Positions 32,033-35,714 of a stretch of 52,642 bases of DNA are shown here, one piece after another; position 1 is the first letter of the stretch; every line of letters starts with the position of its first letter. The stretch is from Spirochaetota bacterium. Lineage in GTDB: Bacteria; Spirochaetota; UBA4802; UBA5550. The translations under genes and the position numbers were made by a program. Location of the stretch: the NCBI GenBank assembly GCA_016928865.1, contig JAFGJX010000065.1, forward strand, positions 1 through 52,642, read 5' to 3'. The notes under the pieces are model-generated. The model saw only the letters and a list, made by a program, of their open reading frames with translations. It had not been told where the DNA came from and did not search any database.

Positions 32033-32102
32033 GGTTTTACTCCTTGAAGGTGGATGTTTTTAAGGTGTGGGGGGGTGGGTTGTCATGTCAATTACTTAAT
32101 TT

Positions 32103-32117
32103 TTTTACTCTGACCCC
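32103..32117 (+). repeat. REP-like repeat copy 1 (TTTTACTCTGACCCC)
   Basis: Full 15-base copy of the island repeat, 67 bases upstream of the transposase start and in direct orientation to the copy at 33978. Such GGGGTCAGAGTAAAA-type sequences are commonly seen beside RAYT genes. Confidence 0.75.
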
Positions 32118-32183
32118 ACATTTTTTTTGCTGTTGTATTGATATTATTCGTATATATAATACCTAACCAATGGAGGAAACTAT

Positions 32184-32780
32184 ATGGCGAGAAAACAAAG
32201 AATTTGTATGCCGGAAACGACGTGTCACACTACATCGCGTTGTATTGAGAAAAAGCCATTGATGAAACCGGATAAAATGAAAGATCTGATGCTTCATGTA
32301 ATAAAATTATCTTTGCTGAAATATAATTTTGAAATGATTGAATATGCAATAATGGATAATCACTTCCATTTTTATATTAGAACATTAAAGAATGGTGAAA
32401 GTATATCAAGAATAATGCAATTCATAAAATCTCAATTTGCTCGGCGGTATAATAGACTCATGAATAGGACCGGGCCATTTTGGAATGAACGTTTTAGCGA
32501 TACGATTGTTGAATTAACGGAAAATCCCGAACAAACCTTCTGGTATATATTTATGTATATTGCCTACAATCCAGTAAGAAGCAAGTATGTAAAAGATCCA
32601 AGAGACTATCTCTATTGTAGTTTTAGATCATATTTTAATGACAGGTATATTTCTCCAGTGCCAATTACAATTCATAATTATTTTTTAAAACTTGGAAATA
32701 CTTTTAGGGAAAGAATGGAAAAATTTTTGGGATTTGAAGAATTATACAGAAAGAGAATATTTGCGGAGGGTATTTTTTGA
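32184..32780 (+). CDS. REP-associated tyrosine transposase (RAYT, Y1_Tnp)
   Basis: A 198-aa Y1 HUH-type nuclease. The HUH motif is in YAIMDNHFHFYIRTL, followed by the typical S-ISRIMQFIKSQFARRYNRLMNRTGPFWNERF, whose QFARRYN Tyr is the likely nucleophile. The final FIAYNPVR-like stretch reads FMYIAYNPVRSKYV. RAYTs cut and join single-stranded DNA at REP hairpins. The gene is very A+T-rich (23% G+C in one 60-base line counted), unlike ilvD, which indicates horizontal origin. The RBS is TGGAGGAAAC. It appears complete. Confidence 0.93.
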   Translation: MARKQRICMPETTCHTTSRCIEKKPLMKPDKMKDLMLHVIKLSLLKYNFEMIEYAIMDNHFHFYIRTLKNGESISRIMQFIKSQFARRYNRLMNRTGPFWNERFSDTIVELTENPEQTFWYIFMYIAYNPVRSKYVKDPRDYLYCSFRSYFNDRYISPVPITIHNYFLKLGNTFRERMEKFLGFEELYRKRIFAEGIF

Positions 32781-32915
32781 TTAATAATTGGTTGTCAGTT
32801 GTAATAATTTAATAATATTGAAAATTAATCCTTTTCGATCCTTTTTATTTATTATAGAGGTATGTTTACTATCTTTTTTTTGAACTATTAACAGTTTTAT
32901 TTTTTTATAAATATA

Positions 32916-32929
32916 TTTTACTCTGGCAC
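32916..32929 (+). repeat. partial REP-like repeat copy 2
   Basis: TTTTACTCTGGCAC, sharing the first ten bases with copy 1. Confidence 0.5.
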
Positions 32930-33024
32930 TATTTTTTATTTTAATATAAAATAATGATTTTTTGTGAGGATTGTATTGAGGATTGGATATGGAAAAGACC
33001 TCGCCATGATGTATAAATGTTTTA

Positions 33025-33047
33025 TTTACTCTGACACTGACACTCGG
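33025..33047 (+). repeat. partial REP-like repeat copy 3
   Basis: TTTACTCTGACAC followed at once by a second TGACAC, ending in TCGG. Confidence 0.5.
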
Positions 33048-33156
33048 TCTAGATTAGCTCACAATCTTGATGCGTAATTTATATTATTAAAATAAAAAAT
33101 TTTATCAAACTTAATAAGAGTTGAATCCGGGTTGAGTATATACTACTTTGGTAGTG

Positions 33157-33579
33157 ATGAAAGTGAAAAGATATTATACAATAATTGCATTGATAATTCC
33201 GTTATTTTGCATAACTTTATATGCAAAAGAAAATGATGGTGGTTTAATTAAAATTTCTCTCCTCCATGAAATATCATCCTCAATTAATGAATACAAATTT
33301 AAAACTATTACTATGAGATTAAAACTTAAAAATATTGATAAAATATTTGAAAAAATTACATTTTATGATGTAAAAAATCATGATATTGAGTTTGATATAT
33401 CTTCCCGCCACTTGAAAAAGAAAATTGCATCAAATATTCACAATCTTCATGAAGGATTAGAATATTATGTGACATTTTCTGTTGATAATGTCGGGAATCT
33501 TGGTCAAATTATTGCCACATTAAAGGAATTCAAGCCTATCTTTTTGCAATCAATTCCGGAAAGTGGAATGAAGGATTAA
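33157..33579 (+). CDS. small secreted protein of unknown function
   Basis: A 140-aa protein. The signal peptide MKVKRYYTIIALIIPLFCITLYA is followed by a Lys/Ile-rich mature part with alternating beta-like strands (FKTITMRLKLKNIDKIFEKITFYDV). There is a Cys at residue 18 but no proper lipobox, so it is probably periplasmic rather than lipidated. It is strongly A+T-rich like the RAYT and belongs to the island. The start chosen is the ATG three codons inside a TTG-initiated frame. I do not recognise a family. Confidence 0.6.
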   Translation: MKVKRYYTIIALIIPLFCITLYAKENDGGLIKISLLHEISSSINEYKFKTITMRLKLKNIDKIFEKITFYDVKNHDIEFDISSRHLKKKIASNIHNLHEGLEYYVTFSVDNVGNLGQIIATLKEFKPIFLQSIPESGMKD

Positions 33580-33581
33580 AA

Positions 33582-33623
33582 AAGAGAAAGCAGAATAGCT
33601 GGGCGGCTATCCTGCCTTCTCTT
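33582..33623. terminator. hairpin after the secreted-protein gene, T tract on the minus strand
   Basis: AAGAGAA-GCAG-ATAGC pairs with GCTAT-CTGC-TTCTCTT with two mismatched positions. On the minus strand it is followed by CTCTTTTTTAA, so it would stop transcription coming from the right; on the plus strand the T tract is missing. Confidence 0.5.
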
Positions 33624-34032
33624 AAAACGCAGTGCCAAGTTTTCAATATGGCAAAATCGGGAGGGAATTACCATATATTAACTTGTTGTTTTTTATATCG
33701 GCAAATATATAAAAAAACTTAAGCAATTTTTTTATTATTTTTTCATTAGTTTTTGTAGTCATTTATTAAGTAGTAAAATATTATACAATATTCTAATTTT
33801 ATTACATACCAATTTTTTGTAATGTTATATTTCCAAAATATTATTTATGCATTGAATAGAGATATCACCAAATGTTTGATCCTTCATTATTGATTTATAT
33901 TCTGATAAGGCGTTAATGATTGTTTATAATCAATTTATTATTTAAAAAGTTATGAGATAGATGTTTATGTTAATGTTATTTTACTCTGACCCCCTTACTG
34001 CTCCTTTTCACATGATGTTGGTTGTATAGAGT
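33624..34032. other. A+T-rich gene-free stretch upstream of rsgA
   Basis: About 400 bases, mostly A and T. It ends with a full repeat copy at 33978 and a short leader to rsgA. No ORF or clear promoter is identified. Confidence 0.6.
33978..33994 (+). repeat. REP-like repeat copy 4, left inverted repeat
   Basis: ATTTTACTCTGACCCCC, extending copy 1 by one base at each end; 39 bases before the rsgA start. Confidence 0.8.
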
Positions 34033-34956
34033 ATGATAGCTACTGTTATAAAAATCTACGGAAAATATTATACCATAGAAAACCAGGGGAAAAGGATTAA
34101 CTGTACTCTGCGAGGACGGTTGAGAAAAGATAAGCGCCTCGAGAAGTATTCCGAGCCTGTTGCAGTCGGTGACAGAGTACTATTCGAGTCAGATGGAGAG
34201 GATGGCGGTGTAATAGAAACGGTTCTAGATCGTAAAAATGTCTTTACCCGGAGATTCAAGGAGAGTGATCGCGACGATCTTATCGCAGCCAACCTGGACA
34301 GGATTGTGGTAATTCAGTGCTTTGGCAAGCCCAGACTCAATTTGCGTTTTGTTGACCGCCTCATTGTTCGTGGGGTCAGAGAAGAAATCCCGGTACTATT
34401 ATGCATTAACAAGCTGGATCTTGCCAGGCGGGATGAAATTGATGCGATAAAGGCCTATTATAGCGGATTTGACCTGGATATTATACAGATGAGTGCCATG
34501 TCCGGCGAGGGAATTGATGAACTGAAGACGGCATTGGCCGGTAGGCAGTCAATCTTAATTGGGAATTCTGGCGTTGGTAAGACGAGCATAATCAATCGGA
34601 TGTACGGAGGCCTTGATCTGAAAACATCCGAAGTTTCCTTAAGTACGGGCAAGGGTCGGCATACTACCACGAATGTCTCCATGTTTACTCTGGGTGATGG
34701 CACCAGGATCATAGATACCCCCGGTCTCCGTGAATTCGGCCTGATGGACATTGAGCCGGAGGAACTGGGTATCTATTTCATGGAGTTTGGCCGATATGCG
34801 GATGAGTGCAGCTTCAGTCCCTGTACGCATGACCATGAGCCTGGCTGTAATGTGAAAAAGCAGGTTGAAAAGGGGAATATCAGCGAGGAACGCTATGTGT
34901 CATATCTCAATATCCTTGTCACATTGCAGGAATATTATCAGAACAGGTATCGATGA
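34033..34956 (+). CDS. rsgA: ribosome small-subunit-dependent GTPase RsgA
   Basis: RsgA is a circularly permuted GTPase that assists late 30S assembly. The 307-aa protein has an OB-fold (about 1-65, with GDRVLFES) and a GTPase domain with permuted order: G4 CINKLDL, then G1 LIGNSGVGKTS, then G3 DTPGLREFG. The zinc site follows as CSFSPCTHDHEPGC. All motifs look intact. The stop overlaps the next ATG. Lower G+C than its right-hand neighbour and the flanking inverted repeats suggest it was moved or acquired. Confidence 0.95.
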   Translation: MIATVIKIYGKYYTIENQGKRINCTLRGRLRKDKRLEKYSEPVAVGDRVLFESDGEDGGVIETVLDRKNVFTRRFKESDRDDLIAANLDRIVVIQCFGKPRLNLRFVDRLIVRGVREEIPVLLCINKLDLARRDEIDAIKAYYSGFDLDIIQMSAMSGEGIDELKTALAGRQSILIGNSGVGKTSIINRMYGGLDLKTSEVSLSTGKGRHTTTNVSMFTLGDGTRIIDTPGLREFGLMDIEPEELGIYFMEFGRYADECSFSPCTHDHEPGCNVKKQVEKGNISEERYVSYLNILVTLQEYYQNRYR

Positions 34957-35714
34957 ATATGATTAAAGTCAAGGGGGTCAGAGTAAAATTCGGTGATAAA
35001 ACCGTCATAGACGGCATCGATCTCCATGTCCCGGAAGGGAAGACCCTCGTCATAATGGGAAAGAACGGGTCGGGAAAATCCACAATCCTGAAAGCTCTAT
35101 CGGGCCTTATCGACTACGAGGGAACTATTGAGATCAAGGGGACCGACATCAGGGAGCTGTATCGTGACAGATACAGTTCCGGCGCTCGAAGCGAGTCGCC
35201 ATTGAGGGTTGCGTATGTCTTCCAGAAGGGAGGGCTTTTCGACTCGATGAATGTGTACGATAATGTGGCCTTTGGCCTCAGACGTCTGGGGCTGGACGAG
35301 GCAAACGTTGAAAAGAGGGTGGCGGATTCCCTCGCGCGGGTCGGATTGAAAGGCAATGACCTGAAGTCGATATCGGAGCTGTCGGGCGGCATGCAGAAAC
35401 GCGTGGGACTTGCCAGGGCGGTCTGCATGGATCCGAATCTTATTTTTTTCGATGATCCCGCCGCCGGCCTTGATCCTATTCTTTCCGACTCAATCGCGGA
35501 CCTGATATGCGAGATCCGGCAGTCCCTGAATGCCACGTCTATAGTCGTAACCCACGACAGCATGGTGGCGCGCAAGGTCGCGGATTCCATCGCCCTCCTG
35601 TATAATGGTAAAATGGTTTATGAGGGCGATTCCGATGGCTTCTTCTCAAAGACAGATCCCTACGCGCGCCAGTTTATCGAGGGGGAGACCGAGGGGCCCA
35701 TTGATATAGTCTGA
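34953..35714 (+). CDS. Mla/Ttg2A-type ABC transporter ATPase
   Basis: A 253-aa ATPase with Walker A GKNGSGKS, signature LSGGMQKRVGLARAV, Walker B LIFFDDPAAGLDP and H-loop VVTHDSM. The sequence after the signature resembles MlaF-type lipid transporters. The residue after the Walker B Asp is Asp instead of the usual catalytic Glu. No MlaE permease or MlaD partner lies nearby. Codons 7-13 (KGVRVKF) lie within the right 17-bp repeat of the island, and the start codon overlaps the rsgA stop; an ATG two codons later is an alternative. Its original 5' end may have been replaced. Confidence 0.88.
   Translation: MNMIKVKGVRVKFGDKTVIDGIDLHVPEGKTLVIMGKNGSGKSTILKALSGLIDYEGTIEIKGTDIRELYRDRYSSGARSESPLRVAYVFQKGGLFDSMNVYDNVAFGLRRLGLDEANVEKRVADSLARVGLKGNDLKSISELSGGMQKRVGLARAVCMDPNLIFFDDPAAGLDPILSDSIADLICEIRQSLNATSIVVTHDSMVARKVADSIALLYNGKMVYEGDSDGFFSKTDPYARQFIEGETEGPIDIV
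34973..34989 (-). repeat. REP-like repeat copy 5, right inverted repeat inside the ATPase gene
   Basis: GGGGGTCAGAGTAAAAT, the exact reverse complement of copy 4. It is read in frame as part of KGVRVKF. Confidence 0.8.

Follow-up and report, generated by a model that had tools for sequence, protein, structure and literature searches.

How did one arm of an inverted repeat around rsgA come to be read as codons of a conserved ATPase gene, and did it bring that gene its start? The question is raised by one locus of the 52,642-nucleotide stretch of Spirochaetota DNA analysed here (the window). The original prediction was that a perfect 17-bp inverted repeat, also present beside a RAYT transposase, encloses rsgA, and that a repeat end had been built into the ATPase gene, giving it its start codon and a translational coupling to rsgA. 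The reading that we put forward, tentatively and from sequence comparisons, is that the arms are two copies of a genus-wide, transposase-associated repeat, and that the coding one may be an overwritten look-alike lying one element-length from a true end.

The rsgA-ATPase junction and codons 7-13

The repeat ATTTTACTCTGACCCCC (33978-33994) and its complement (34973-34989) are present with 0 mismatches, and the perfect pairing is in fact longer, reaching 19 bp (Table 1). The right copy is in frame with the ATPase, where AAG GGG GTC AGA GTA AAA TTC gives the expected KGVRVKF, at residues 7-13 when numbering begins with the ATG at 34953. A chance match had been thought improbable, and searching with up to 3 mismatches agrees, since 3 matches to the 17-mer were found vs a mean of 0.02 in shuffled windows. 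The third match is the copy ahead of the transposase gene, with 2 mismatches in 17 and the 14-bp core exact. The coding copy and its extragenic partner are 991-994 bp apart. Both candidate starts of the ATPase, 34953 and 34959 (the latter as in relatives), lie inside the repeat-enclosed segment, and the first ATG overlaps the rsgA stop codon. The best NCBIfam match of the ATPase is NF008809, under its cut-off (173.9 of 441). A one-mismatch core within rsgA itself (34372-34382) is compatible with chance (5 sites, three of them true copies, with 0.5 expected). The AT-rich island also holds a 143-aa ORF with a TTG start (33148-33579), with the transposase on one side and rsgA on the other.

Table 1. 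Positions in the window of the repeat copies and neighbouring genes
Feature	Position	Strand	Remarks
AT-rich island with transposase and extragenic copies	32033..34032		GC 28.1% vs 54.6% for the window
Repeat copy just 5' of transposase gene	32102..32118	+	Core 32104-32117 exact; 65 bases ahead of ORF
RAYT-type (Y1/HUH) transposase, 198 aa	32184..32780	+	PF01797 38.8 bits (cut-off 23); NF047646 80.9 (cut-off 80)
Degenerate copy TTTTACTCTGGCAC, 3' of transposase	32916..32929	+	Same orientation as upstream copy
Degenerate copy TTTACTCTGACAC, 3' of transposase	33025..33037	+	Same orientation as upstream copy
Extragenic repeat copy, left arm of 19-bp inverted repeat	33978..33996	+	36 bases 5' of rsgA start codon; one of 54-copy family
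rsgA, ribosome-biogenesis GTPase, between arms	34033..34956	+	PF03193 164 bits; ancestral ATPase neighbour
MlaF-like ABC ATPase	34953..35714	+	PF00005 109 bits; native start likely ATG 34959
Coding repeat copy, right arm	34971..34989	-	Read on + strand as ATPase codons 7-13 (KGVRVKF)

That both starts lie within the segment, and that the first ATG overlaps the stop codon of rsgA, could speak for a repeat insertion as the source of the ATPase start and of the coupling. Relatives tell otherwise. We searched 38 of them and fetched the best ATPase match for 29. The nearest named record, Spirochaetes bin RBG_13_51_14, has 73% ATPase identity. In 29/29, rsgA lies 5' of the ATPase, adjoining it or within about 0.25 kb, and in 28/29 a start codon aligns with the second ATG of the window (ATG in 20, GTG in 7 and TTG in 1). 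Because of this, the junction and the ATPase start are, on these comparisons, ancestral. The reading frame of the ATPase is conserved among the relatives as well, so no insertion took place and rsgA was not carried in by the repeat. Insertion as the origin of the start, and rsgA as cargo between the arms, were therefore both rejected, and we give the insertion model practically no credence.

The codons themselves have another history. A protein search returned 380 hits, of which the best 120 were examined, and among these the window shares KGVRVKF with a single protein, P0002, which is 94% identical. Two homologues with 83% identity (P0003 and P0004) have KGLRISF and KDLRISF. The five congeners have K/R-D/E-L-x-I/V-x-F, written in different codons, and the repeat core is absent from this site in all five. 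The residues do vary naturally, since in the 120 homologues position 8 is G in 16, position 9 is V in 7, position 11 is V in 40 and position 12 is K in 3. The coding copy is unlikely to be a chance match, and the DNA of codons 7-13 is not ancestral. As the frame and the flanking residues align without a gap, these codons were replaced in place. The idea of a repeat end built into the gene stands as far as its codons match the repeat and differ from those of relatives sharing the junction; it fails in that nothing was inserted. Of the two features by which relatives were to refute the prediction, they share the junction and differ in the codons.

The repeat family and its transposase

The genome of the window (G000, 3.81 Mb) was compared with five congeners (G001-G005), 25.4 Mb for the six together; all are draft bins, and gene calls were home-made. 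We call the 14-bp TTTACTCTGACCCC the core, GCTCTGACCCC the 11-mer core, and copies outside genes extragenic. The genome-wide search suggested by the original prediction gave 54 exact cores in G000, with 0 for the reversed control. The core is found in 6/6 genomes of the genus, with 3 to 54 copies each, in 0/33 other genomes of the family and order, and in 1/290 genomes sampled from the phylum beyond the genus, as a single match; the reversed control likewise gave one, in a different genome. That sole exact 14-mer outside the genus is at G109:C104:4700-4713. A companion hairpin, CGATARYTATCG, lies near 27/54 copies of G000 (e.g. L016 and L106) and is rare or absent in most congeners (7/20 in G005, 2/30 in G003 and 0/22 in G001). 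By eye, the 14-bp core is not palindromic and has no GTAG tag, as REP sequences would. The papers that quote the 11-mer appear unrelated by title, among the matches listed. A DNA-uptake or Chi-like motif was rejected, given 3 to 54 copies per genome and 121/133 exact copies lying outside any coding sequence that could be confirmed.

The window's transposase scores just above the cut-off of the curated RAYT model (Table 1) and has, by eye, the HUH motif as HFH in DNHFHFYI; as predicted, the repeat lies beside it. The complement of the core begins with GGGGTCAG, which fits the GGGGWSAS motif of TIRYT terminal repeats, both in the complement of 32102-32118 and family-wide. Pfam gives only Y1_Tnp (residues 12-110 of 198) and no C-terminal HTH of TIRYT subclass 2.1. 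The inverted flanking repeats of a TIRtron were not found in the window, where the upstream and both degenerate downstream copies are on the + strand. Since the copies share one orientation and no HTH domain is found, the putative element is classed as TIRYT-like, short of the strict TIRtron definition. At other transposase loci the repeats are direct (L150 and L158) or inverted (L161), and in two of these loci, L158 and L150, copies are 868 and 880 bp apart. The core lies within about 1.5 kb at 13/30 fetched transposase loci. Beside transposases in two other families of the order (G020 and G023) the core takes the form GCTCTGACCCC, and a GGGGTCAGAGC family adjoins the transposases at L141, L152, L156 and L162, which likewise come from other families of the order.

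Copies inside conserved genes and their distance to extragenic copies

The ATPase copy is the only one of the 54 exact copies of G000 within confident coding sequence. In the five congeners, 79 copies were found, 16 of them overlapping some open frame under loose criteria; 10 were counted as lying in conserved genes with no visible insertion, one is an insertion (L201) and five were judged weak or misplaced frames (L179, L180, L183, L192 and L209). The ten lie in a PQQ-propeller/OmpA protein (three genomes), a C45 peptidase-like protein (two) and five families with one copy each, namely DnaK, RarA, a transglutaminase, a BrkB-YCF48 protein and an alpha-2-macroglobulin (A2M). Adding the ATPase brings the count to 11 exact copies, spread over 8 conserved gene families in six genomes and over three of the four reading frames open to the motif. 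Alignments with relatives covered 4/8 families, namely ATPase, PQQ, RarA and C45 (7/11 copies), and none of these has an insertion. Relatives share the residues of PQQ and C45 at the repeat, and it is chiefly the codons that match it; in RarA the residues are changed too. The BrkB-YCF48 frame STILYSD has an exact core in G003 (L220) and a variant core in G004 (L244:66).

Some other genes hold several cores. A 4Fe-4S protein of G005 (L201:867-2501, the same as gene L352:9357-10991) has an in-frame insertion cluster of four cores that adds residues. An M48 peptidase gene of G003 (L303:9868-10839) has two cores, 44 bp apart, among its final 42 codons, perhaps a tail made by insertion. One HrpB-type helicase gene of G003 (L315:8023-10524) has three antisense GCTCTGACCCC cores; in the fetched stretch, no extragenic copy lies within 2.2 kb of them.

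Could such matches arise by chance? Extrapolating from 3- and 2-mismatch coding sites (51 and 13, respectively, in 1.44 Mb), 0.09 and 0.28 exact coding copies are expected in 25.4 Mb, and 13 control motifs predict 0.20, vs the 11 observed. Synonymous-variant counts agree in direction with the other controls, among the matches listed. Of the one-mismatch sites in G003, 59/64 fall into a small set of recurrent variants (TTTACTCTGACACC, TTTGCTCTGACCCC and similar), unlike a random spread from drift. For the 11-mer GCTCTGACCCC, 13 coding sites outside the region choice were found in 1.44 Mb, three of them in the pair of genes with inserted or tail-end clusters; 300 permutations averaged 1.04 and never exceeded 8. 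ACTCTGACCCC gave no coding site outside the chosen 14-mers in the same 1.44 Mb. Judged by these counts, the coding copies taken as a set are not due to chance, and pure chance for the whole set was rejected on the expectation, the recurring variants and the 1/290 outside the genus. For any single copy, the window's included, a small probability of chance remains.

Coding copies are also found near extragenic ones. We compared 21 genome-loci at rsgA-ATPase, RarA, PQQ and C45, fewer than 21 independent cases because sister species share history. With an extragenic copy nearby (the nearest 0.5-1.6 kb away) a coding copy was present in 10/10, and without one in 1/11, this being PQQ in G001. Contig ends truncate three of the 11 (L033, L246 and L248), and PQQ in G004 was counted through a copy 1.07 kb off with its last base changed. 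Without the exact copies that brought loci into the comparison, the figures are 4/4 with and 0/10 without. In G003 and G004, a variant core, GCTCTGACACC, falls on codon 196 of rsgA, and extragenic copies 5' of that gene lie 759-796 bp from it. The same locus has neither kind of copy in G001, G002 and G005, the contig of G002 starting inside rsgA.

Distances were then counted in 81 regions with 11-mer cores, which left 28 coding sites after omitting the two insertion-cluster genes (L352 gene 9357 and L303 gene 9868); RarA in L284, overlooked by the gene caller, was entered by hand. An extragenic core lies within 1.5 kb of 16/28 coding cores, vs 4.48 for region-matched random coding positions (0/5000 draws as high). 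The excess is at 600-1300 bp, with 13 coding cores vs 2.33 at random, a bin picked only after the histogram was known; below 600 bp there is none (2 vs 1.52). Counting one per gene family (omitting L348, L343, L330, L335 and two of three L315 sites) gave 13/22 vs 3.87, cores outside the region choice gave 7/12 vs 2.33 (p 0.0022), and two looser gene-calling settings, held-out regions included, gave 15/27 and 15/26 vs about 5. Twenty held-out G000 regions, for which the prediction was fixed beforehand, contained just 3 coding sites; 2 had an extragenic copy within 1.5 kb (p 0.27), and for 1 the distance fell inside the bin (p 0.47). Exact coding copies of G003 are within 1.5 kb of an extragenic copy in 4/5 cases, a zone making up 3.7% of that genome; in G001 the count is 0/2. 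Extragenic-extragenic pairs have a minor peak at 700-1000 bp and another at 1.5-1.9 kb.

Possible origins, known systems and meaning

In the explanation that we tentatively favour, a transposase bound to one true end would capture a near-match about one element-length off on the same single strand, and the cut-and-join reaction, or its repair, would write the end sequence across the near-match. Most such events would harm proteins and be lost, and those at compatible codons would persist. The substrate may be single-stranded lagging-strand DNA, by analogy with IS200/IS605 elements. Here rsgA would be enclosed by the arms since its length is close to that of one element. Against overwriting stand PQQ in G001, whose coding copy has no extragenic neighbour, and G001 as a whole, with 0/2 near an extragenic copy. 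The core is found at just 13/30 transposase loci, the 27 pairs within 1.5 kb are of mixed orientation (17 inverted and 10 direct), and sequence flanking the 14 bases matches the local copy best only in the window.

An unlikely explanation, though one deserving serious weight, is that template switching at replication, or short gene conversion, perfects a near-match with no transposase, as in quasi-palindrome correction. This process is known to homogenise the arms of inverted repeats, coding sequence in yeast included (PMC8604942). It would suit the window, whose pair is inverted and whose local copy gives the longest match among 53 exact copies (19 bp, the next being 18), as well as the majority of inverted pairs. 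However, it should favour short distances, where no excess is seen, and it leaves the direct pairs aside; outside the window the local copy is not the best match, and local copying through matching flanks was rejected as a general process. The order of events may also be reversed, with coding look-alikes arising by ordinary drift and new extragenic copies then placed about one element-length away. This accounts for the spacing and co-occurrence, for the coding copy without a neighbour in G001, and for PQQ and C45, where mostly codons follow the repeat, but it leaves the excess of exact coding 14-mers over drift unexplained, and we consider it unlikely too. That the ATPase codons match the repeat by coincidence is improbable. 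The natural variation of these residues allows it, and some congener coding matches sit at residues conserved beyond the genus, but 0.1-0.3 exact coding copies were expected and 11 found, the core is nearly absent from the rest of the phylum, and the partner gives a 19-bp match at about 1 kb.

Already known are the terminal repeats of TIRYT elements and REP insertions in genes (PMC3733652). The TIRYT/TIRtron elements described in 2013, with GGGGWSAS in their terminal repeats (PMC3733652, discussed in PMC6006769), resemble our family in this motif, in copies scattered singly and in groups, and in a RAYT-kind Y1/HUH transposase in the genome. They differ in that the window's transposase-flanking copies have one orientation and no inverted partner, that Pfam detects no HTH, and that here copies occupy codons in place. 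REP insertions in genes and Rickettsia palindromic elements are likewise mobile repeats translated within conserved genes (PMC3733652). Those add residues, whereas the proteins compared here keep their length, with the exception of the insertion cluster of G005 (L201). When imperfect inverted repeats are homogenised by template switching (PMC8604942 and PMC7202029), the sequence of one arm would likewise replace that of its partner where it stands, leaving clustered substitutions; our case differs in that the arms belong to a transposase-linked family, have about 1 kb between them and occur in direct as well as inverted orientation. The lagging-strand template is targeted by IS608 and ISDra2 of the IS200/IS605 family (PMC6006769). 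In the parts of the open-access literature covered, nothing was found that describes such repeats overwriting codons in place. Higgins et al., in 1988, are said to have linked REP evolution with gene conversion, to judge from their title, and the idea shared with ours is that short repeats spread through conversion.

Taken further, and with more doubt, the transposase could be the agent, a domesticated HUH enzyme that edits host genes by pairing a genuine end with a look-alike. End sequence would then be copied onto the look-alike and spread through coding regions with no insertions, only protein-compatible events surviving, and DnaK, RarA, RsgA, the MlaF-like ATPase and others would carry, across the genus, the fossil traces of transposition that failed. 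Insertion is a known way in which mobile repeats alter proteins, whereas in-place overwriting would leave no visible insertion. If true, core genes would gain clustered, directional substitutions from a source easily overlooked, at a spacing that the element dictates, and studies of codon usage, selection or phylogeny could be led astray. The poorly understood RAYT-type transposases would, moreover, have a visible activity on host DNA.
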